From Rhizobium sp. ICMP 5592 (GTDB lineage: Bacteria; Pseudomonadota; Alphaproteobacteria; Rhizobiales; Rhizobiaceae): a stretch of DNA of 64,000 bases. The position numbers were made by a program, and so were the translations under genes. The notes below the pieces were generated by a model. That model made no database searches, was not told the DNA's origin, and saw only the letters and a list, made by a program, of their open reading frames with translations. Numbering within the stretch: the first letter of the stretch is position 1; the number at the start of each line of letters is the position of its first letter. The DNA is taken from assembly GCF_009498525.1 (NCBI RefSeq), contig NZ_QSNT01000003.1:125893-189892 (forward strand). The letters are read 5' to 3'. This document shows positions 539 to 18,124 of the stretch, piece by piece.

Positions 539-614
539 GGGCGATTAGCTCAGTTGGTAGAGCGCCTCGTTTACACCGAGGATGTCGGGAGTTCGAGTCT
601 CTCATCGCCCACCA
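539..614 (+). tRNA. tRNA-Val(TAC)
   Basis: A 76-base cloverleaf begins GGGCGAT and ends ATCGCCC plus discriminator A and CCA. The anticodon stem CCTCG/CGAGG holds loop TTTACAC with anticodon TAC, which reads valine GTA/GTG codons. The D-arm AGCTCAGTTGGTAGAGC and the T-arm GTTCGAGTC are canonical. The accessory mosaic begins just downstream, so this gene may be an insertion boundary. Confidence 0.97.
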
Positions 615-887: not shown

Positions 888-1949
888 TTAAGCTAGCGCG
901 CCGTGAGCAATAGCTCGTGCGAAGGACTGCGAGACCGGATCACGGCCCGGGAGTGGCACCTCACGCAGCAAGGTAGGGACCGCGACCGCCTGGATGGATG
1001 CCTCCTTGGCGATTTCCGTCACGTAATTCGACAGAATCGGGCGCGGCGCGATCTCGATAAATAAGTTGCATCCCATCGCCATCGCCGCCTGGCAGGCAAC
1101 TTTGAAAAGCACAGGGGCACGAACATTGCGCCACCAATATTCAGTGTCCAGCAGACGCCCATCATGGAGCTCACCTGTCACCGTCGAAATGAAAGAGGCC
1201 GTGCCCGCGTCTGGTGCGACATTTAGCAGATCCGCGAGAAAGGCATCCTTCGCCCGGTCAATGATCGGATGATGAAAGGGATAGTTGATGTCGAGTATGT
1301 GCACGACGATGTGTGCGTTGCGGGCAGCATTCTTGAATGCCTCGACCTGGTGGACGGGACCGGAAATCGTAACCGAATTCGGTGCGTTGATCGCAGCGAT
1401 GCAAATATCGTCTAGGCCGTGTGACTTGGCAAAGGCGAGTGCGCCATCCTCATCGAGAACAACGGCTGCCATCTTGCCTTCCCCGGCAAGAAGATCCTGA
1501 TGCAGCGAGCGTTTAGCGACGATGGCGACCGCCTCCGCAGCCGTCAATGCTTTGGCCACATACGCGGCTGCGATTTCACCAACCGAGTGGCCGAGGACAA
1601 CATCAGGCTTTACACCAAGTGCCGAGAGGCAATCCGAGAGGGAAACTTGAACGGCAAAAAGCAGGGGCTGCGCAACCTTCGTATCGGCAAGCCGCGAAGA
1701 CAGATCAGCGGACACTAGGATATCCGTCAGCTTCTCGCCAAGATAGTATTCGAAGAGAGCGCTGAACGACTGGAAACATTGCCGGAAATGGCGGTTCTCC
1801 TGATATGCCTCGACTCCCATTCCCGCCCATTGCGAACCGTTACCAGAGAAGACGAAGGCAATTTTGATCGGTTGGGCCGGCAATTCACTAGTGAAATATT
1901 TAACCGGCGCCTTCGGCAGCGGACTTAATCCATTAGGCTTGATCTCCAA
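888..1949 (-). CDS. Stand-alone polyketide-synthase-type acyltransferase domain fused to a cupin gene start
   Basis: From about residue 28 the 353-residue product is one acyltransferase domain of a type I polyketide/fatty-acid synthase. It has the N-terminal FVFSGNGSQWAGMG signature, the nucleophile motif GHSVGE (Ser122) and YPFHHP with catalytic His226. Such domains load malonyl-type extender units onto acyl carriers. The frame stops right after the domain, with no ketosynthase, reductase or carrier, so it looks cut from a larger RkpA/PKS-like protein. Residues 1-22 instead match the start of the cupin at 3623-4018 (LEIKPNG...APVKYFT against LEIKPNG...APVEYFT). The TTG start at 1949 and its GGAG sequence correspond to those of the cupin. 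GTG at 1955 is an alternative start. The frame stays open upstream to 2183, antisense to the glycosyltransferase remnant. Whether it is expressed is unknown. Confidence 0.6.
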   Translation of the reverse strand: MEIKPNGLSPLPKAPVKYFTSELPAQPIKIAFVFSGNGSQWAGMGVEAYQENRHFRQCFQSFSALFEYYLGEKLTDILVSADLSSRLADTKVAQPLLFAVQVSLSDCLSALGVKPDVVLGHSVGEIAAAYVAKALTAAEAVAIVAKRSLHQDLLAGEGKMAAVVLDEDGALAFAKSHGLDDICIAAINAPNSVTISGPVHQVEAFKNAARNAHIVVHILDINYPFHHPIIDRAKDAFLADLLNVAPDAGTASFISTVTGELHDGRLLDTEYWWRNVRAPVLFKVACQAAMAMGCNLFIEIAPRPILSNYVTEIAKEASIQAVAVPTLLREVPLPGRDPVSQSFARAIAHGALA

Positions 1950-2026
1950 GGCCACGCTCCAGCTTCGACGGCGCTCGCCACGCTTCGCCCCTCTCCAACT
2001 TATGCCATTCAATGACGTCATCCAAG
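1891..2026 (-). repeat. Diverged copy of the cupin 5' region (left copy)
   Basis: This stretch is roughly three-quarters identical by eye to 3960-4098 and lies in the same orientation. It carries the cupin ribosome-binding region, the TTG start and about 20 codons, plus about 75 bases upstream. Its left side runs in frame into the acyltransferase domain and its right side abuts the truncated glycosyltransferase, so both ends look like recombination joints. Confidence 0.75.
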
Positions 2027-3582
2027 TTGTCCACCCGCAAAATGAGCAGGGCACCGAACTCATTCTCAGCGACGACGGATCCACCTCGTCGGAAACAAAG
2101 CACTGGTATGAGGCGCAGAAGCCGAAGGACAATATCCGCTTCGTTCTGAACGGCAGGAATGGCGGCATAGCGGCTGCCACCAATGCCGGGCTTTCTCAGG
2201 CCCGCGGCCTATGGGTCGCCTTTCTGGACCACGACGACATGGTCGCGCCGCATGCGTTCAAGGTCGTGCGGAACGCCTTCGAGCAGAACCCGAGTGCGAA
2301 TTTTCTCTATACCGACGAATTGGTGGTCGACGACACGCTGAGGCCCACGGGGCTCATGCTGAAGCCGGCCTACGATCCCGTTCTCCTGACGGGCGTCAAC
2401 TACATCAATCATTTCTCCATCTATCGCCGCAGCCGGCTCCAGGAGATCGGCTTTCTGCGAACCGGATATGACGGCTCGCAGAATTATGACCTGCTGCTGC
2501 GCTATCTGGAAGGTTTGCCAGACGATACCATCCTGCATCTGCCCTACCCGGCCTATTGGTGGCGGCGTAATGGCCGCACCTATTCCCGCAAGTTCATGGA
2601 TGCGGCGACCACCAATGCCCGCAAGGCGCTTTCCGAACGATTCGCGCACCGGCACCAACCAATTCGCGTGGAAGAGGCGCTGACGGACACCCTCCATCGC
2701 GTCATATTCGAGCGGCCGGAGGCTGCCTGGCCCAGGATTTCGATCATCATCCCCAGCAAGGACAGCCTCGACCTGATCTCCAGGGTTTTAAAGGATATCT
2801 TCGAACGCACGGATTACCCCAATTTCGAAGTGCTGGTCGTCGACAACGGCTCCTCGGATCAGGCCGTGCTCGATCTCTACGACCATTACCGCCGGACCTA
2901 CCCGCAGTTCTCCGCGTCGATCACGCCGGAACCCTTCAACTTCTCGCGCTCGGTCAATCGCGGCCTCGGCACTGCTACGGGTGAGCACTATCTGATCCTT
3001 AACAACGATGTCGAAATCATCGAGCCGGGCTGGCTGCAAGAGATGGTCACCTGCCTCGCCTATGAGGGAACCGGCATTGTCGGCGCCAAGCTGCTCTATG
3101 GCAACAACAAGCTCCAGCATGCCGGTGTCATCGTCGGCTTCGGCGGGCTGGCGGGTCATTGGTACATGAGCAAACCCAGGGAGTTCGGCGGCCCGATGAA
3201 TAGGCTGCACGTCCGCAATTCCATGACCTGCGTGACGGGTGCGGTCATGCTGATTTCGGGCGACTGCACCCGCGCCATCGGCACATTCGACGAAGAGAAT
3301 TTCGCCGTCGCCTATAATGACGTCGACTATTGCGTGCGCGCTCACAAGGCCGGATTCCGCATCATATGGAAGCCGTTCGCCTGCCTCTACCACCATGAAT
3401 CATTGTCGCGGGGATCCGACAAGTCGGGAGAGAGGAAGAAGCGCTTCGAACGGGAGAAGGATAATTTGCGCAGGCTGCACGACACGCGGACCTTCTCGGA
3501 CCGCGCCCTCAATCCTGCCTATAGCCGGGACAAATCAGACCCGAAGATCCTGATCCCGACGAAATTGCACACGCCACAGTGA
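2002..3582 (+). pseudogene. 5'-truncated two-domain family 2 glycosyltransferase
   Basis: From about 2050 the frame encodes a rhamnosyltransferase-like GT2 protein that would add sugars to a cell-surface polysaccharide. The first GT-A domain begins only at ELILSDDGST, so the usual first strand (a VSIIxPxYN-type sequence) is missing. LDHDD is present. The second GT-A domain is complete, with ISIIIPSKD, VVDNGSS, LNNDVEI and a C-terminal basic tail. The sequence before the join belongs to the duplicated cupin upstream region read on the opposite strand. The best in-frame ATG (2002) has no ribosome-binding site, and the open frame extends further back to 1864 only by chance. I call it a 5'-deleted remnant, although the rest of the frame is intact, so the event may be recent or the product may retain a use. 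Confidence 0.7.
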
Positions 3583-3622
3583 GTTCACGGCGATCCGGTC
3601 GGATCGATCTCTTGTCGTGTCA

Positions 3623-4018
3623 TCAGGCGTGATACTGCTCCTCACTCACATATTCCATCCAATCCGCGGCCTTGCCATCCTGCGTCTCCTGAATGGCGAT
3701 ATGCGTGAGCGCGGTCTCCGGCCCGGCGCCATGCCAATGCTTTTCGCCGGGCGCGAACCAGAGAACATCGCCGGCATTGATCTCTCGAATGTCGCCGCCC
3801 CAGCTCTGCGCCAACCCCTTGCCTGCGGTCACCACCAGGGTCTGGCCGAAGGGATGCGTGTGCCAGGCGGTACGGGCGCCGGGCTCGAAACTAACGTTGA
3901 CGACCTGGACGCGGGCTGGCGCCTGAGCCTGTATCAACGGCTCCTGGCGCACGTCGCCGGTGAAATACTCGACCGGCGCCTTGAACACCGGTCGCGATCC
4001 ATTGGGCTTGATTTCCAA
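3623..4018 (-). CDS. Small Mn-type cupin, (R)-hydroxynitrile-lyase-like
   Basis: This 131-residue single-domain cupin has the metal-site motif HTHPFGQTL in cupin box 1 and PGEKHWHGA in box 2. It closely resembles, from memory, the manganese cupin hydroxynitrile lyases of Granulicella and Acidobacterium, which have the same length, the same [12 protein letters not shown] segment and the same DWMEYV-E-QY ending. Those enzymes cleave or form cyanohydrins in vitro, but their natural role is not clear, and related cupins are simply listed as carboxymuconolactone-decarboxylase-associated. The start is TTG at 4018 with AGGAG eight bases upstream. The 5' end is duplicated at 1891-2026. It lies 106 bases downstream of the SMC-like ATPase, on the same strand. 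Confidence 0.8.
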
Positions 4019-4098
4019 GGCTTATCTCCTGCTTCGAACGGCGCTCACCGCGCTTCGTTCCCACAGCCAGCCTATGCCATTCGAAGACGGCATCCAAG
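3960..4098 (-). repeat. Cupin 5' region, right copy of direct repeat
   Basis: This is the native counterpart of 1891-2026: first codons, TTG start, AGGAG and upstream leader of the intact cupin. With the left copy it forms a direct repeat that brackets the glycosyltransferase remnant and the cupin body. Confidence 0.75.
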
Positions 4099-4124
4099 CG
4101 GGAAGGCCGACACTCTACCGGCGC

Positions 4125-7100
4125 TCAAAGCCGGATCAGATCCAGATCCTTGCCGATCTCGCGTTTGGCAATCTCGACGACGCTCATTTCATGGGTGAAG
4201 AGGATGGTCTGGAAGCGCGCCGCCGTGCCGGCAAGTGCCTTTAGCCCGGCGCTGGCGCGCTCGTCGTCGAAGGTTTGGAAGATATCGTCGACGATCAGTG
4301 GAGCCGGCTCGTTGCGGGCGGAATAGTCTTCGAGGAAGGCAAGCCGCAGGGCGAGGTAGAGCTGATCGCCGGTGCCCTCGCTCAAGCCTGCGAGCGGGAC
4401 GCGCTCGCCGCCGGAGCGTTCGGCCAGCAATTGCAGCGTATCGGCGTCGTCGTGTTCCTCGACCAGCCGCGTAAAGCCGTGGCCGGTCAATAGCGAGAAC
4501 AGCTCGCCTGCCCGTGTGATCACCGGATCGGCCTGCTGCTCGCGATAGGCCTCCATCGAGCTTGCCAGCATCTGCCCGGCAAGCTTCAGCACCACCCATT
4601 GCCGGGCCAGATCCTTGGCTTCCTGCTCGGCGGAGAGCTTTTCGAAGACCGCGTATTCGGCGCTGACGCCGGTTTCGAGGGCGCTTCGCTGTCGCTGGTT
4701 TTCCGCCAGGCGGGCCGCGAGCGCACCATTCGCTGTGAACTGCCTCTGATCCTCGGCGGAGAGCCGCTCGATCTCCAGCCCAGCGGCAACGCGTTCGAAG
4801 CCGTTAAGCTCGGCGCGGATCGCCTCCTCGCCATCGCCTTCCGCTTGCTGGCGCAAACGGTCGCGGCTTTCCGCCAGTCGCGCATGCAACCGGGCGCGAT
4901 CACGCAGGCGAGACAACAGAGCAAACAGATCAGCGTCCCCCGGCAAATCAGCCGTCAGATCGGCGAGAACGGCAGTGACCGTCGCAAGCGCCTCACCGCA
5001 ATGGGCAGCCTGCGCCTCGGCGCGCTGGCGCTCCTCCTCGAGCCGGTCATATTTCTTCTGTTCGTCGCGCACGGCGCTAACGCGGACGTGCAACGCCTCG
5101 GCAGCCGCGTCCGGTGGCAGATGATCGAGCTCCAGGCTGGCGGTTGCGGCCAATGTTGCGAGCCTCCGCTCGAAATCGGCCATGTCGCGGCGCATGCCGC
5201 TGACGCGGCGCTGGCGATTGTCGTGCTCGGCCAAAACATCCGGCAACTCTGTCCATGCCTTCAAGGCGATGGAGGCCATCTCCAGCGTCGCATCGGCGGA
5301 AAGGCCGAGCGACAGGACGGCCTTTCCGAACGCATCGCGCCAAGTCGCCTGACGTCGCTCGATATCCTGCTGCTGCTCGCCAAGCCGGGTCAGCCGATCC
5401 CGCGCAGCACCGATCTCGCCTTCGCGCGTGCGGCTTTCATTCCAGCGCTCCGAAAGCAGGCGGAGATGTTTGCGCAAGCCTTCGGCCATCGCGCCCGGCG
5501 GCAGGCGGCCGCTCTTGTAGCCGGTGGCCTCGGCAATATCCCTCAGCGCCGGCGAGACACGCGTCTCTGCCAAGGCAGCCTCATTTCGTTGATCCAGCAG
5601 ATCGCGAAGAGCCCGGCGCTCCCGGAAGAGAGTTTCGACTCCGCGCCGCCATTCCAGCATGGCTGCCGGATCGACGGCGGAAACGCCGGATGCATCGAAG
5701 AGTGCCGCGAAGGCGGCCAACGCCTTTGCTGAGGTCTCTTCGCGCTCCTGCAATCGCTTTGCGGCAGCCTCGCGTTCCAGCAATAGCCGCGCCTGACGCA
5801 GGCGATTATCGGCATGGCGCGAAACGCGATCCGCGTCGCTCAACGCCGCATCGGCCAGTTGGTCGGCTTCCGCGAGGCTTGCTGTAAAGGTGGCAATCAT
5901 TTTGCTATCGGGAGCTGGGCCAGCATCCGTCAACCGCTCGCGGATCGATTGCCATCGGCCATCGCGAGCCTCACGCGCGCCGACGATCTGTTCACGGGTG
6001 ACGATCGGACCGGTGCGCTCCGCATCCGCCAGCGCCTGTTCGATCTCGGCCAACTGCTCATCGTAGGTGCGCAGCTTGTCGGATGCTTCGCGTAGGCCGG
6101 CACGGGCCGCATCGATGGTTTCGCGATGCGCGACAATCTCGGCGCTGTCCGGCAGCGGGGTTGCAAAGAGCGCGTCGATATCGGCGACCGGCGGGCGCAA
6201 GCGAGCGGCGGCCTCGCGAAGATCCGTCTCGGTACGGCTGATCTGCGTCTCCAGCCCATCAAGGCGGGTAAGGCTGGCGAGATCACCGGCCAATGCTTCG
6301 AGCTGATCAATATAGGGCCTGGGATCAATCAGGCGGCCCGCAGAGCCGTCCTTCTCCAGTGCCACGAGCTGGCGGCGCTCGCTATCCACTTGCTCGGCAT
6401 TTCCCTGGCTTTGCAGCAACAGCCACCTGCCCTCTTCGACCAGCTCGGAGAGGCGGACGCGATCGGCATCGCTGGGCTGCTGCTTTTCCAGCTGTGTAGC
6501 ATCGGTGAAACCAAGACGGCGGGCGAGCTGAACAAGCGTCGCGTCATAACCGGCCAGCTCCTGATCGACGCGCGGCAGATCCTGGCGCTGGCTGCGATAA
6601 TTGCCGGTATCGGCAAAGAGCTGGGTGATATCGTCTGATATTTGCAGCACGGTGTCGTCGATGCGGATCAGCGACAGTTCTTCGCCGGTGCGCGCGGCAA
6701 GCTGCTGGGCGCGGCGCAGTTCGTCTTCGGCGGCGCGCTTATCGTTCAAGCCCTGCTCCAGCTGATCTGCAAAACTGTCCGATATCGCCGAGAGATCGGC
6801 AAGGTCTTCGAGAGCAGTCCTCTCGCTGTCGATTTCAGCCAGGAGCGGCTGTAGCGTCTTCAGCTTTTGCAGACGGTCGAGCGCTTGGCGCGTCTGGCGG
6901 CGCTGGTCCTGCAGACGCTCCAGCTCGGCTTCGAGTTCAGCGGCTTCAGCCAGCAGCTTCTTCCAGTCGCCGGATTTGAGCTCATTGTCGCGCTCGGCCT
7001 TGCGGGCCTCATCATGGCGGTCCAGCGCCTGATAGAAACTGCGATCCTTGGAGCGGCGCTGCGCATAGATGCCATCGGCTTCGCCTTCCAGCGACTGGCG

Positions 7101-7586
7101 CAGGCGAGAGAGACCGATAAGGCCGGAAGCGGCAGAAAATAGCAGGCTGCCGATTTCGCCGCCGCTGCGCAGCATCGCCGTCGCCCCCTGCCGCAACCGC
7201 AGGGAATCGAGGCCAAAGGCGCGCTCGAAGACGTCGCGGCTCAGATTGCCGAGAAATGGCGCCAGGGCGTCTTCGGCAAGCGGCGTTTCCTTGTCGTCTG
7301 GCGCAAGAAGCGTGTTCTTGCGCCCGCGACGGCGACGGAAGTCGAGTATTGCGCCATCGCGCGTGGCGATCGATGCGCCGACGCGCAGTGTCGTCGGCTC
7401 GTGCAAAAAGCTTTGCTCGGCAGCAGAGGGAAAACCAAATAACAGGTCGGAAATCGCGCTGAGCGCCGAGGACTTGCCCGCCTCATTCGGCCCATAAATG
7501 ACATGCAGCCTGGCGCCGGGGCGAAAATCGAGCGTGCGGTCGGTCAGCGCGCCGTAGCGGAGAATGTCGAGCCGGTTAAAGCGCAT
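4125..7586 (-). CDS. YhaN-like SMC/Rad50-type ATPase (SbcC analogue)
   Basis: The 1153-residue protein has an N-terminal ABC-type head with Walker A GPNEAGKSS (about residues 32-40). A very long stretch rich in Glu, Arg, Leu and Gln follows, as expected for antiparallel coiled coils. The C-terminal half-head carries the signature LSEGTGDQ and Walker B PLIVDDIF. This is the AAA_27/YhaN arrangement, related to Rad50 and SbcC, in which the ATPase gates a nuclease at DNA ends. Its ATG follows the stop of the upstream phosphoesterase by three bases, so the pair is translationally coupled and probably forms one complex. The role is inferred as DNA end processing or repair. No zinc-hook CxxC is obvious in the middle, unlike Rad50. 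Confidence 0.88.
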   Translation of the reverse strand: MRFNRLDILRYGALTDRTLDFRPGARLHVIYGPNEAGKSSALSAISDLLFGFPSAAEQSFLHEPTTLRVGASIATRDGAILDFRRRRGRKNTLLAPDDKETPLAEDALAPFLGNLSRDVFERAFGLDSLRLRQGATAMLRSGGEIGSLLFSAASGLIGLSRLRQSLEGEADGIYAQRRSKDRSFYQALDRHDEARKAERDNELKSGDWKKLLAEAAELEAELERLQDQRRQTRQALDRLQKLKTLQPLLAEIDSERTALEDLADLSAISDSFADQLEQGLNDKRAAEDELRRAQQLAARTGEELSLIRIDDTVLQISDDITQLFADTGNYRSQRQDLPRVDQELAGYDATLVQLARRLGFTDATQLEKQQPSDADRVRLSELVEEGRWLLLQSQGNAEQVDSERRQLVALEKDGSAGRLIDPRPYIDQLEALAGDLASLTRLDGLETQISRTETDLREAAARLRPPVADIDALFATPLPDSAEIVAHRETIDAARAGLREASDKLRTYDEQLAEIEQALADAERTGPIVTREQIVGAREARDGRWQSIRERLTDAGPAPDSKMIATFTASLAEADQLADAALSDADRVSRHADNRLRQARLLLEREAAAKRLQEREETSAKALAAFAALFDASGVSAVDPAAMLEWRRGVETLFRERRALRDLLDQRNEAALAETRVSPALRDIAEATGYKSGRLPPGAMAEGLRKHLRLLSERWNESRTREGEIGAARDRLTRLGEQQQDIERRQATWRDAFGKAVLSLGLSADATLEMASIALKAWTELPDVLAEHDNRQRRVSGMRRDMADFERRLATLAATASLELDHLPPDAAAEALHVRVSAVRDEQKKYDRLEEERQRAEAQAAHCGEALATVTAVLADLTADLPGDADLFALLSRLRDRARLHARLAESRDRLRQQAEGDGEEAIRAELNGFERVAAGLEIERLSAEDQRQFTANGALAARLAENQRQRSALETGVSAEYAVFEKLSAEQEAKDLARQWVVLKLAGQMLASSMEAYREQQADPVITRAGELFSLLTGHGFTRLVEEHDDADTLQLLAERSGGERVPLAGLSEGTGDQLYLALRLAFLEDYSARNEPAPLIVDDIFQTFDDERASAGLKALAGTAARFQTILFTHEMSVVEIAKREIGKDLDLIRL

Positions 7587-7589
7587 GGG

Positions 7590-8825
7590 TCAGCCCGCCC
7601 CCTGCCCGCGCGCCAGTAGCAATTGCCGCGCCTCTTCGATCAAGGTCTCCAGAGTATCCTCCAGCGGCAATTCCGCAGCGCCCAGCCCACCCGGCAGGCG
7701 GACCGCAATCTCGCCAACGAGCCGACCGGCTTCGGCCACGATGTCCGCATCGCCGGCATGCTCGGAGAGCAACTGCCCGAGATCGAGCGTGCCGTTGGCC
7801 TCGACAGCGGCCGCTACGGGTGCTTCCAGCCGCAGTTCCAGTTTTTCCAGCCAGATATCCTCATGGACACGATGGCAGGCCGCCTCGACTTCATCACGCC
7901 ATTGCTGGCGATTCGCGGCAATGGCGCCCTGCAGCGGTGTGATGCCGGACAGCCGGACCCGCAGCGCCGTCATCCGCCCCGCTATGTCATCGGCGAGCGG
8001 CTGCACTGCCTGCTCGACGCGGCGCAGGATCGCGGCTTGATCGTCCTCGGGGTCGACTGTGATATCGATCTGCGCAAACCGCGCTTCGTCGACGATCAGC
8101 CGCTCATGGCTGATGCGACCATCCTCGACGGTGACGAGCACGGCCCCCTTGGCGCCACGCTCGCGAATGTTGCGGCCCTGCAGATTGCCGGGAAAGATCA
8201 TCAGCGGATCGGTTGCCACCACTTCATAATCATGGACATGGCCTAGCGCCCAATAGTCGTAGCCACGCGAACGCAGATCATCGACCGAGCACGGCGCATA
8301 GGGCGCATGCGGCTCGCGGCCGGTGAGCGAGGTGTGGAGAATACCGATATTGAACCAGCCGGACACGGGTGCCGGATAGTTTACCGCGAGATTGTCATTG
8401 GCAGAGCGCTCGGCAAAGCCCTGCCCGTGCAGCGCTACCCGCAAAGCCTCCAGCCGGACGGAACCGGGCTTGCCGGTCGGGAATTCATGGACATTTGCCG
8501 GCAGCGTGATGGTCTTGGTGATCACGCTCGCCGCGTCGTGATTGCCGCGCAGCAGATAGACGGGAATGCCAGCCCGCTCCAGCCGCGCCATTTCGCGATT
8601 GAAGAACAGGCCGATCTTGTTGTCCTTCCAATCGCCATCATAGACATCGCCGGCAATCAGGAAGAAATCGACCTGCCGTTCGATCGCCTGCCCTACAAGC
8701 GTCGAAAAAGCCTTGCGGCTGGCCTCCACGAAAATCGAGGCGACAGCCGCATCCTTCAGAGCCAGCCCCTGGAAAGGGCTGCCGAGATGCAGGTCGGCGG
8801 CGTGGATGAAGCTGAAAGAGGCCAT
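7590..8825 (-). CDS. YhaO/SbcD-like DNA repair metallophosphoesterase
   Basis: This 411-residue calcineurin-type phosphoesterase has the motifs in order: DLHLG near the N-terminus, AGDVYDG, RGNHD, and later GHVHDYE. These bind two metal ions, as in the Mre11/SbcD nucleases. The C-terminal third is variable and probably contacts the ATPase encoded immediately downstream. ATG 8825 has GGAG just upstream. As in Bacillus yhaO-yhaN and sbcDC pairs, nuclease precedes ATPase. The DNA substrate is not known from sequence. Confidence 0.9.
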   Translation of the reverse strand: MASFSFIHAADLHLGSPFQGLALKDAAVASIFVEASRKAFSTLVGQAIERQVDFFLIAGDVYDGDWKDNKIGLFFNREMARLERAGIPVYLLRGNHDAASVITKTITLPANVHEFPTGKPGSVRLEALRVALHGQGFAERSANDNLAVNYPAPVSGWFNIGILHTSLTGREPHAPYAPCSVDDLRSRGYDYWALGHVHDYEVVATDPLMIFPGNLQGRNIRERGAKGAVLVTVEDGRISHERLIVDEARFAQIDITVDPEDDQAAILRRVEQAVQPLADDIAGRMTALRVRLSGITPLQGAIAANRQQWRDEVEAACHRVHEDIWLEKLELRLEAPVAAAVEANGTLDLGQLLSEHAGDADIVAEAGRLVGEIAVRLPGGLGAAELPLEDTLETLIEEARQLLLARGQGAG

Positions 8826-9042
8826 AGGCTCCGGTCGATGTCAGATATCTGGCATCCCTTTTAGGCAAATACGGCGGCATTGAATACCTGCCGCCGGCGG
8901 TCATCCCATGCTTTCGTGGATTGCCGAACGCTGTCATATTCCTATGTCACACGATTGCGATGCTGTACCACCCTCACGCGCTTGCCGCTGCTTCAGACGG
9001 CTGCTACTGCGCTCAACTTTCAGCACGAACGGAGAGATTTTC

Positions 9043-10029
9043 ATGAGACACCATGCTTTCGGCCGCACGCCCTTCACCGTCACGGATGTCGGCTTCGGCG
9101 CCTGGCAAATCGGCGGCGCCTGGGGCGATGTCAGCGAGGCCGATGGCCGCGCGGCGCTCAACGCAGCACTCGACGCCGGCATGACCTTCATCGACACAGC
9201 CGACGTCTATGGCGACGGCCGTTCCGAGAAGATCATCGCCGATGTGCTGAAGGAGCGTGGCGGCGAGCGCCCGATGGTCGCGAGCAAGGCCGGTCGCCGG
9301 CTTTCCCCGCATGTGGCCGATGGTTACACCAAGGCCAATCTCGAAGGCTTCATCGACCGCAGCCTGAAGAACCTCGGCGTCGACAGCCTCGACCTGGTAC
9401 AGCTGCATTGCCCTCCCACGGAAGTGCTCTATCGTCCTGAGGTCTTCGCTGGTCTCGACGAGTTGCAGAAGGCTGGCAAGATCAAGGGATACGGCGTCAG
9501 CGTCGAGAAGGTCGAGGAAGCGCTGAAGGCGATCGAGTATCCGGGCGTTGTCAGCATCCAGATCATCTACAATATCTTCCGCCAGCGTCCTGATCATCTG
9601 TTCTTCAAGGAAGCCAAGCGGAAGCAAGTCGCGGTCATTGCCCGCGTACCGCTGGCCTCCGGCCTGCTCTCCGGCAAGATCACCCGCGACACCCACTTCG
9701 CCAGCGACGATCACCGCAACTTCAACCGCAACGGCGAAGCCTTCGATGTCGGCGAGACCTTTGCCGGCGTGCCCTTCGAGATTGGCCTTCAGGCGGTGGA
9801 AGAAGTACGCAAGCTGGTCCCGGCCGGCGCCAGCATGGCGGCCTTTGCGCTGCGCTGGATCCTGATGCACGACGCGGTCACCGTCGTCATCCCCGGCGCT
9901 CGCAATGCCGAACAGGCCAAGGCCAATGCGGCCGCCGCTGACCTGGCGCCGCTATCGGCAGATGTCATGGCCGCAACGCGCGAGCTCTACGAGCGCCTGA
10001 TCGCCCCGCACGTCCATCATCGCTGGTAA
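9043..10029 (+). CDS. Aldo/keto reductase
   Basis: This 328-residue NADPH-dependent oxidoreductase has the AKR TIM-barrel pattern. GFGAWQIGG is near the start, the catalytic Asp54 and Tyr56 lie in DTADVYGDG, Lys is in ASKAGR, His is in QLHCPP, and the cofactor-binding IPGARN segment is near residue 290. The ATG at 9043 with GGAGAG eight bases upstream is preferred over the in-frame codon at 8908, which would add 45 residues unlike the family. It is monocistronic or co-transcribed with the SDR gene 74 bases downstream. The substrate is unknown. Confidence 0.9.
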   Translation: MRHHAFGRTPFTVTDVGFGAWQIGGAWGDVSEADGRAALNAALDAGMTFIDTADVYGDGRSEKIIADVLKERGGERPMVASKAGRRLSPHVADGYTKANLEGFIDRSLKNLGVDSLDLVQLHCPPTEVLYRPEVFAGLDELQKAGKIKGYGVSVEKVEEALKAIEYPGVVSIQIIYNIFRQRPDHLFFKEAKRKQVAVIARVPLASGLLSGKITRDTHFASDDHRNFNRNGEAFDVGETFAGVPFEIGLQAVEEVRKLVPAGASMAAFALRWILMHDAVTVVIPGARNAEQAKANAAAADLAPLSADVMAATRELYERLIAPHVHHRW

Positions 10030-10103
10030 GAGCAATGACCTTTTAGAGAATAGGTGGCCGGGTGCAAATCCGGCCACGAGCGGAGACACAGGAGGAGAAT
10101 TCA

Positions 10104-16466: not shown

Positions 16467-16870
16467 GTGCATCCTTTACCAAGCTTGCCCCGACGGCGAT
16501 AACGCCGGGAATCGAATAAAATCCTTTATCCCTACATAGAGTGTCCCTGCCCTGCACTTCAAGACGCCCGAAGGGATAACGTCAAAAAGGCCTAATGGCT
16601 GAATAGATGTTGAAGAAGCGTTTTCAACCGCCGATGCCAATAGATCCGATGACGCGACACGCGTACTCCACCGCATTTCCCAACCAAAAGGTGAAGGAAG
16701 GATGAAATCCGGGCGATGTTGGCACAACCGTCGTGACAAGCGCAGCTAAAATTTACCAAGCGGCTTAAGAAACTCACCATCTTATTCGGCGACGATACAC
16801 AGATTGCAAGCGTTGCCGTGTTCCCTTACGCCGACGCCATCCGCGCCGCGGAAAGGGAGAAACGCCGACC
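16467..16870. other. clpP / GGDEF divergent intergenic region
   Basis: This 404-base gap carries the clpP heat-shock promoter on its left. The remainder has no supported gene and no clear promoter for the rightward GGDEF gene. Confidence 0.55.
16534..16563 (-). promoter_or_regulatory. Heat-shock (sigma-32-type) promoter of clpP
   Basis: On the complement CTTGAA (16558-16563), 16 bases, then CTCTATGT (16534-16541). Both boxes fit the alphaproteobacterial RpoH pattern well. It lies about 70 bases before the clpP start. Confidence 0.65.
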
Positions 16871-18124
16871 GTGCTCAATATCACCACGGGACTGACCATC
16901 TGGTGCTCGGAGGCGATCACGCTCGCCGCCGTGCTTTTTCTCGTCTGGCGGCATGATCGCCGCATGACGGCCTATCTGATGTGGGCGCTGGGCTTTGCTT
17001 TCAGCGCTGTCGGATTCGGTCTCGTGGCGGCGCGTGGCCTCATTCCGGATCTACTGTCGATCGAGTTCGGCAATGGCATCGCTCTTCTCGGCGAAAGCGC
17101 CTGGATCGCCGGCTTCCACCGGATGGACAAACGAAGGCTCCAATGGTCGGCACTGCTGCCGCCCGCGATCTGGATCGCCGGCATCGGGCTGCCATGGATC
17201 CATGAGAGCTTTGTCAATCGTGTCTTCCTGTATGACCTCGCGGGCGCTGTCGGTGCGACGCTGATGGCCCGCGCAGTGCGCCCGGCCGAAGGCCGGCATG
17301 AGGCAGCGCGCGGGCCGCTTGGTTTCGTGTTGATGGCGCTCGCCTGCGTCTGCCTCATCTCCTCCATGTCGATGATCCTTCTGAGGCCGAGCCTCGAAGA
17401 GGCGTTGATCTATCGCGGCTATTCCGCCCTCGGCTGCGCACTGCTGATCATCACGGCCATTGCGCTCAGCGGCCAGCTGCTGATGGAACGCGCGGAGCGA
17501 CGCTGGCGGACGATTTCGATCACGGACATGCTGACGGGTGTCCTGAACCGACGCGGCCTGCAGGATTACTTCCCGCTTGTCGTCGAAAAGACAGCAAGGG
17601 GCTCGCAAAAGATTGCCGCGCTGCTGTTCGATCTCGATCACTTCAAGGCGATCAACGACCGCTATGGCCATCAGACCGGCGATATCGTACTTGCCGAATT
17701 TGCCCGTATCGGCCGGCAATTCGTACCCGGAAGCGGCGCGTTCGGCCGTATGGGCGGCGAAGAATTCATCGCCTTCGTCCCCGTCAACGATCAGGCCGAA
17801 GCCGAGGCGATCGCAGAGACGGTCCGCGCCGATTTCTGCCGCACGCCACTGCTCGCCGGCCAATCGCTCGTTTCGGCGACGGTCAGCGTCGGGCTGGCGA
17901 TCATGCCCTGCGACATCGCCAATTGGGATCGGCTCGTTTCAGCCGCCGACCGGGCGCTTTATGCCGCCAAACGCGCCGGCCGCAACTGCACCGTCGTCTT
18001 CGGCGAGGCGGAGGCGACGATGGCAACCGACACGCCGCCGGATCCGAACGGCGGAGAACTGGTGCCAACGCTCGACGACCAGATCCATGCACTCCGTCGT
18101 CTCGGTACGCTCGCCCAGATGTAA
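16871..18124 (+). CDS. Membrane-anchored diguanylate cyclase (GGDEF)
   Basis: The 417-residue protein has an N-terminal half with about six hydrophobic segments (residues 5-200) and no recognisable sensor fold. A GGDEF domain follows (about 215-375) with DxLTGVLNRR, FDLDHFK-IND and the active-site GGEEF at 295-299. It should make cyclic di-GMP from two GTP at the inner membrane, controlling biofilm, motility or polysaccharide output. The residues five to nine before GGEEF are not RxxD, so the usual product-inhibition site is absent. The start is GTG with GGGAG upstream, somewhat distant. The gene ends 41 bases before the P450 gene and may be co-transcribed. Confidence 0.9.
   Translation: MLNITTGLTIWCSEAITLAAVLFLVWRHDRRMTAYLMWALGFAFSAVGFGLVAARGLIPDLLSIEFGNGIALLGESAWIAGFHRMDKRRLQWSALLPPAIWIAGIGLPWIHESFVNRVFLYDLAGAVGATLMARAVRPAEGRHEAARGPLGFVLMALACVCLISSMSMILLRPSLEEALIYRGYSALGCALLIITAIALSGQLLMERAERRWRTISITDMLTGVLNRRGLQDYFPLVVEKTARGSQKIAALLFDLDHFKAINDRYGHQTGDIVLAEFARIGRQFVPGSGAFGRMGGEEFIAFVPVNDQAEAEAIAETVRADFCRTPLLAGQSLVSATVSVGLAIMPCDIANWDRLVSAADRALYAAKRAGRNCTVVFGEAEATMATDTPPDPNGGELVPTLDDQIHALRRLGTLAQM

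Follow-up and report, generated by a model that had tools for sequence, protein, structure and literature searches.

A chimeric gene with a captured cupin start and a polyketide synthase acyltransferase domain, probably maintained after loss of a capsule locus in Rhizobium

Here we describe a chimeric gene in a 64,000-nucleotide stretch of the genome of Rhizobium sp. ICMP 5592 (contig NZ_QSNT01000003.1, positions 125,893 to 189,892), hereafter called the window. The gene joins the beginning of a neighboring cupin gene, including its start codon and a promoter-like block, to a complete acyltransferase (AT) domain of a polyketide synthase (PKS), and it lies beside a glycosyltransferase cut at its N-terminus. 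The same junctions are found in R. rhizogenes NBRC 13257, and comparison of these two carriers points to purifying selection on the chimeric protein after the fusion. The locus is probably best read as a maintained new gene left after the loss of an rkp/kps-type capsule locus. In window coordinates, its features are the following.

539-614, plus strand: tRNA-Val, left syntenic anchor of the capsule locus
806-890, no strand assigned: third junction, with about 85 bp of filler, from the end of the AT to the tRNA-Val side; supplies the stop codon
888-1949, minus strand: chimeric gene of 353 codons, TTG start at 1949, TAA at 888-890 (open frame, PF00698, same frame in NBRC 13257)
891-1886, minus strand: complete PKS AT domain, codons 22-353 of the chimeric gene
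1881-1889, no strand assigned: second junction, passing from cupin to PKS codons at a Gly-Glu-Val common to both parents in R. rhizogenes OV677, 8 of 10 nucleotides alike
1887-1949, minus strand: cupin-derived leader, codons 1-21 of the chimeric gene
1887-2026, minus strand: copied cupin 5' region with promoter-like block (1997-2026), GGAG, TTG start and leader codons (77% identity to 3960-4098)
2002-3582, plus strand: glycosyltransferase with two GT2 domains, truncated at the N-terminus so that the cut falls in the first domain and the second is whole; the ATG at 2002 is in frame (Pfam; 727-residue intact relative)
2027-2036, no strand assigned: first junction, where the truncated glycosyltransferase meets the upstream end of the cupin copy; differs in length by 10 bp from NBRC 13257
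3623-4018, minus strand: intact parent cupin gene, 131 residues, TTG start, AGGAG site (PF07883; 5' region aligned with 12 other genomes)
4019-4098, minus strand: parent promoter-like and untranslated region, source of the copy (match to 1891-2026; cupin alignment)

The copied cupin codons pass directly, in frame, into the AT domain, which is matched by the PF00698 profile at residues 32-332 (profile positions 2-299 of 319, E 3.8e-68). Mechanically, the frame extends upstream of 1949 to another TTG at 2183, giving 431 residues; the start at 1949 is preferred because it coincides with the start site of the cupins themselves. In alignment with AT3 of 6-deoxyerythronolide B synthase (DEBS), Ser122 falls on the serine of GHSxGE and His226 on the histidine of YASH, the position of which is occupied by YPFH in the chimera. 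These two residues and Arg147 are invariant among 36 sequences, the active-site motifs are the same as in the AT of the parent PKS, and identity to 13 PKS homologues ranges from 64 to 89%. In an AlphaFold model (mean predicted local distance difference test, pLDDT, 85.4) the AT is confidently predicted and residues 1-20 lie below 50. The nearest solved folds are PKS AT domains, namely tylosin AT5 (8jpu), DEBS KS3-AT3 (2qo3) and the avermectin loading AT (4rl1), with template modeling (TM) scores of 0.82-0.85.

The copied region at 1891-2026 matches 3960-4098 with 77% identity over 136 bases (E 3.6e-22), and no further match to it is present in the genome at E <= 0.001. Since the parent cupin is itself intact, the piece was copied rather than moved. 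A chance likeness of the cupin start was considered and rejected, given this E value and the common promoter-like block. We aligned the 5' regions of 13 cupin genes, from ICMP 5592 and 12 other genomes. The core of the promoter-like block, CTTGGATG, is present in 12 of them (it is absent in genome G002) and in both chimera copies. The element ATGRCATAGG occurs in all 13 cupins, and both chimera copies have GGCATAAGTT instead; AGGAG is likewise universal in the cupins, and the chimera copies retain GGAG and TTG. The start codon of the cupins may be TTG, GTG or ATG, always at one common position. From its conservation and position, we infer that the block functions as a promoter. A palindrome within the block, ATGACGTCAT (window 2012-2021), is found in both chimera copies and in six of the 13 cupins; the cupins of ICMP 5592, NBRC 13257, OV677 and genome G128 lack it.

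The intact glycosyltransferase of OV677 has 727 residues, and homology in the window begins near its residue 213, at about position 2036. In-frame ATG codons lie at the junction in both carriers, despite the 10-bp length difference, and no ribosome-binding site is evident at them. At the second junction the Gly-Glu-Val of the two OV677 parents is encoded within GGCGAGGTGC and GGTGAAGTGC; the chimera reads Gly-Glu-Leu in NBRC 13257 and Ser-Glu-Leu in ICMP 5592. Among codon-aligned 10-mer pairs of the two OV677 genes, 535 of 318,208 (0.17%) reach this level of likeness. At the third junction, the stop codon lies just past the end of the PKS homology, within the filler, which is common to both carriers and of which the genome holds no second copy (query 806-895) at E <= 0.001.

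Most of this architecture agrees with a first-pass annotation of the window, which had reported a diverged recurrence of the cupin 5' end (leader, ribosome-binding site, TTG start and about 20 codons) at 1891-2026, its in-frame run into a complete PKS-type AT retaining Ser122 and His226, a glycosyltransferase without its N-terminus, and hence a chimeric gene that had captured the initiation region of another. The junctions, the parents and the cupin signals support this last claim as well. Beyond what was described there, the copied piece includes the promoter-like block, and the mosaic extends further left, to about 806. The same annotation had guessed an rkpA-like PKS as the parent of the AT, correctly as it turns out. 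We looked for the AT in 59 other genomes of the genus; in 16 it sits, at 70-87% identity, within a frame of 2,477-2,498 residues (about 2,490), the match spanning chimera residue 11, 20 or 21 to residue 351 or 352. The four of these 16 genomes whose surroundings were fetched are syntenic with the window locus. In OV677 the parent has the rkpA-like domain order ketosynthase (KS), AT, dehydratase (DH), enoylreductase (ER), ketoreductase (KR), acyl carrier protein (ACP). Among named genomes, the stop-to-stop frame that holds the AT is 2,000 residues or longer in 76 of the best 80 of 268 AT relatives, and one further relative, by subtraction, has a frame between 1,500 and 2,000. The frames below 1,500 are the chimera copy of NBRC 13257 (L099, 395 residues), L115 (996) and L143, which runs off its contig. 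The 996-residue frame, from Aliirhizobium terrae CC-CFT758, is possibly a split or frameshifted PKS.

In relatives such as R. rhizogenes OV677 the interval from tRNA-Val to the glycosyltransferase holds some 22 kb of capsule genes, and of these ICMP 5592 and NBRC 13257 retain only the PKS AT domain and the truncated glycosyltransferase. Synteny with OV677 covers -9999 to 806, toward the tRNA, and on the opposite flank 2037 to 30000, where the query ends, except for 16727-18112, a segment of about 1.4 kb without a counterpart at the same place in OV677. The 10.8 kb of OV677 that correspond to the interval from 2037 to 1888 are reduced to about 149 bp in the window, and the 10.5 kb that correspond to the interval from 896 to 806 are reduced to 90 bp. 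The OV677 PKS is followed by a BioF/Kbl-type pyridoxal phosphate-dependent acyltransferase, a short-chain dehydrogenase/reductase (SDR), a sulfatase-domain protein and a KpsS-like protein (NCBIfam matches below cut-offs); in G128, genes for a polysaccharide export protein, an ABC ATPase and others lie between the PKS and the glycosyltransferase. RkpG and RkpH are names that we presume for proteins of the capsule locus. The RkpG-like and KpsS-like proteins of OV677 have relatives of 95% and 89% identity in G128, and their best matches in the two carriers reach 31-39%, a level also present in intact genomes. KS matches in ICMP 5592 are confined to frames of 401-465 residues. The cupin and the PKS are separate genes in OV677, G128, G048 and G018, and also in G002, where the cupin region was matched as part of 3606-10030. 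PKSs of the RkpA/WcbR type belong to capsule clusters, according to the part of PMC3908369 considered here.

A wide conservation of the arrangement in Rhizobium, which according to the first-pass annotation would have refuted its proposal, was looked for with window 1500-2400 as query against 148 genomes of the genus (labeled G000 for ICMP 5592, G137 for NBRC 13257, G050 for OV677 and so on), with up to three candidates scored per genome. The chimeric junctions occur in only two of the 148, including ICMP 5592, and a widely conserved ordinary gene was rejected on this ground. An assembly artifact was rejected as well, the assembly of NBRC 13257 being independent and having the same junctions.

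Over 881-2032 the two carriers align without an insertion or deletion (indel). Their differences in the chimeric gene, 47 synonymous and 17 non-synonymous, fall 11/6/47 on the three codon positions and give a ratio of non-synonymous to synonymous rates (dN/dS) of 0.107; for the AT alone the ratio is 0.092, and ten pairs drawn from five intact PKS ATs give 0.059-0.099. There are 16 residue changes, where neutral simulations with the same number of substitutions have a mean of 43 and a minimum of 30 in 5,000 draws. No indel was found in 1,137 bases of the chimera region. In the non-coding DNA at 615-805 there are 50 mismatches in 186 positions and four indels, at 806-887 nine mismatches in 80 positions and two indels, and in the promoter-like block with its untranslated region (1950-2027) three differences in 78 positions and no indel. 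All these differences post-date the fusion, because they lie between junctions that both carriers share and because ICMP 5592 is in none of the 250-bp steps along the AT nearer to G128, OV677 or G048 than to NBRC 13257. Thus the two genomes show that the chimeric protein has been under purifying selection since the fusion. With its frame still open and constrained, the copy in NBRC 13257 extends what the first-pass annotation had claimed. A decaying remnant, whose frame stayed open by chance after the capsule loss and whose product has no importance, is improbable, although the locus is plainly degraded and its glycosyltransferase cut. Since 24% of the neutral simulated copies are free of stop codons, the open frame alone would prove little; it is the substitution pattern, with its low dN/dS, its excess at third positions and fewer residue changes than any neutral draw, that already makes this explanation disfavored. 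In addition, the gene is without indels while the neighboring non-coding DNA has several, and its catalytic residues are kept.

In a tree of 87 distinct sequences out of 94 ATs (FastTree support values), the chimeras are nested among PKS ATs, inside an R. rhizogenes group of four with support 0.997. Judging from this nesting and from the fused state in only two of 148 genomes, the split state, with cupin and PKS as separate genes, is ancestral. We propose that a segment of about 2.1 kb, reaching from within the glycosyltransferase to a point slightly upstream of the cupin block, was first duplicated in tandem. A deletion of about 13 kb would then have joined codon 21 of the left cupin copy to the beginning of the AT, at the Gly-Glu-Val microhomology, and a second deletion, of about 10.5 kb, would have removed the DNA behind the AT. 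Tandem duplication plus one deletion gives the observed order and orientation of AT, cupin 5' end, truncated glycosyltransferase and cupin. Alternatively, repair of the deletion may have inserted a 140-bp patch templated by the cupin, which lies at a distance of 2 kb, with no tandem duplication. The copy is indeed short, and the junction at 806-890 also has filler; but duplication and deletion give the order and orientation of the pieces with no insertion needed, and the microhomology between cupin and AT in OV677 also argues against a patch, which we regard as possible but rather doubtful.

Several observations weigh against a maintained new gene formed in this way. The estimate of selection comes from one pair of genomes and 64 substitutions, and the 21 leader codons, with dN/dS of 0.445, are not constrained. 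The truncated glycosyltransferase has dN/dS of 0.146 between the carriers, and its second domain is constrained at 0.06-0.11; the low ratio at the locus is therefore not unique to the chimera. For the same reason the glycosyltransferase, tried as a neutral control, failed in this role. Its cut first domain is relaxed, at 0.23-0.25 versus 0.04-0.10 in the G128-OV677 pair, and the truncated protein may, to judge from these ratios, be the product of a working gene too. A simple sigma-70 promoter scan called the promoter-like block on neither copy. At the second junction the in-register pair in G128 has 7 of 10 nucleotides alike and off-register pairs have 8, so the microhomology is modest evidence. 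The glycosyltransferase-cupin-glycosyltransferase-cupin intermediate expected of the duplication was not seen among the candidates scored in the 148 genomes. KS and AT searches of ICMP 5592 and NBRC 13257 found no PKS lacking an AT, and searches for carrier proteins found no partner for the chimeric AT.

The history of the AT also disagrees with that of its flanks. The AT stem common to both carriers is long, at 0.144 substitutions per site (by distance arithmetic, a synonymous distance dS of about 0.46 and dN of about 0.033), and the flanks have no such stem. Synonymous distance to OV677 and G128 is 0.69-0.95 for the AT, exceeding 0.40-0.43 for the glycosyltransferase, and GC content at third codon positions is lower in the ATs of the carriers (0.62-0.63 versus 0.69-0.77). 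The mismatch, which would not be expected had the AT simply evolved in place, could result from exchange of segments between lineages or from changed codon selection. The fusion of AT and cupin may also have arisen by one deletion in a third lineage and reached the ancestors of ICMP 5592 and NBRC 13257 by recombination, the adjoining glycosyltransferase and cupin being those of the recipient. We take this as a real possibility that nonetheless falls short of being probable. Besides the greater distance of the AT from intact relatives, it has in its favor that the carriers are closer to each other in the AT (dS 0.205) than in the glycosyltransferase (0.301), SbcD (0.407), YhaN (0.486) and the cupin (0.628). 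The copied leader is moreover 71% identical over aligned columns to the cupin of its own genome, where the cupins of G128 and OV677 are at 89-90%, and both copies have the palindrome that the cupins of the two carriers, G128 and OV677 lack. However, no distant donor is needed for chimeras nested in the R. rhizogenes group of four, and dS of Lon is lower still (0.163), so that rates vary along the region.

Returning to a maintained gene formed at this locus, its product would act as a discrete FabD-like acyltransferase that carries an acyl group from coenzyme A to a separate ACP; action in trans on a separate carrier is likeliest, the KS and ACP that once belonged to the same chain having been lost. 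A phenylalanine in the active-site motif (HAFH) favors malonyl, and from YPFH the acyl group is probably malonyl. The cupin-derived leader may be a disordered tail that serves translation only. Seven matches to the PP-binding domain were found in ICMP 5592: one beside FabF, one beside a KS pair (which by its position we take to be AcpXL-like), a 95-residue ACP, and four in frames of 1,366-1,379 residues. Since similar proteins occur in intact genomes, none is special to the carriers. An AT-less PKS or type II partner was rejected for ICMP 5592 on the strength of two stretches: the neighbors of the KS on contig C3 are an SDR, a FabA-like protein and a GNAT protein, and those of the 95-residue ACP on contig C21 are an acyl-CoA dehydrogenase-like protein and a radical SAM protein. 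The sole other AT of ICMP 5592 is a 332-residue FabD-like frame with 31% identity to the chimeric AT, and NBRC 13257 has two PKS frames with KS (contigs C48 and C38), each with an AT of its own. PksD-type acyltransferase homologues are editing hydrolases, and PksD (8avz) is among the sequence matches of the chimera. It is unlikely, even though no synthase without its own AT was found in either carrier, that the stand-alone AT is such an acyl-CoA or acyl-ACP hydrolase rather than a synthetic transferase, its closest relatives in sequence and fold being PKS AT domains and its active-site motifs those of the parent. More tentatively, the AT of the capsule PKS might already have served a second carrier in trans before the capsule was lost, selection then rescuing the domain and the cupin promoter and start giving it independent expression. 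If true, a deletion-born fusion would have a real function, and moonlighting would have been exposed by gene loss.

The chimera resembles the deletion-born fusions of Kaul et al. 2026 (PMC12803068) in that separate coding pieces were joined by deletion and relatives keep the split ancestral state. In the sections of that paper drawn on here, no clear novel beneficial function was identified for such fusions, and dN/dS of most candidates was consistent with diversifying selection. In contrast to them, the chimera keeps a catalytic domain in full, begins with a promoter-like block and start copied from elsewhere, and has been under purifying selection between two species. Deletion alone does not account for it; duplication or copying is also needed, because the gene that provided the 5' end survives intact at a distance of 2 kb. 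In outcome it is, by its sequence, of the deletion-born type, unusual for the evidence of purifying selection. Whether fusion accidents become real genes is left open in those sections of PMC12803068, and the chimera makes the question testable: its parents, junctions and captured start signals are all readable, the catalytic domain is kept, and constraint is seen in two species. Compared with the mono-modular RkpA/WcbR capsule PKS, as presented in the part of PMC3908369 used here, the chimera is the AT domain of a single KS-AT-DH-ER-KR-ACP chain, the other five domains being lost. FabD and the discrete trans-ATs are likewise separate PF00698 proteins of similar length with the Ser-His pair; unlike them, the chimeric AT descends directly from a cis-AT domain, in carriers where no AT-less PKS was found. 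The three solved ATs named above were excised in the laboratory, whereas this one was cut out by evolution, without the stretch that intervenes between KS and AT. In the open-licence literature we found no paper on a stand-alone AT of such origin, and nothing on gene fission or decay of AT domains; for the origin of trans-ATs the one paper that came up concerns dinoflagellate toxins. The chimera shows a route from a megasynthase domain to a free-standing enzyme.

Two further observations concern related genomes. G128 has a large polyketide cluster (C4:2307857-2366766) of trans-AT appearance, which contains over ten KS domains and, at its end, two discrete ATs. Genomes G013, G117 and G024 (loci L070, L071 and L072) seem to have reduced the same capsule locus separately: two of these loci keep the glycosyltransferase, with only 5.7-5.9 kb to the tRNA side and no AT match, and in one only the last part of the glycosyltransferase remains.

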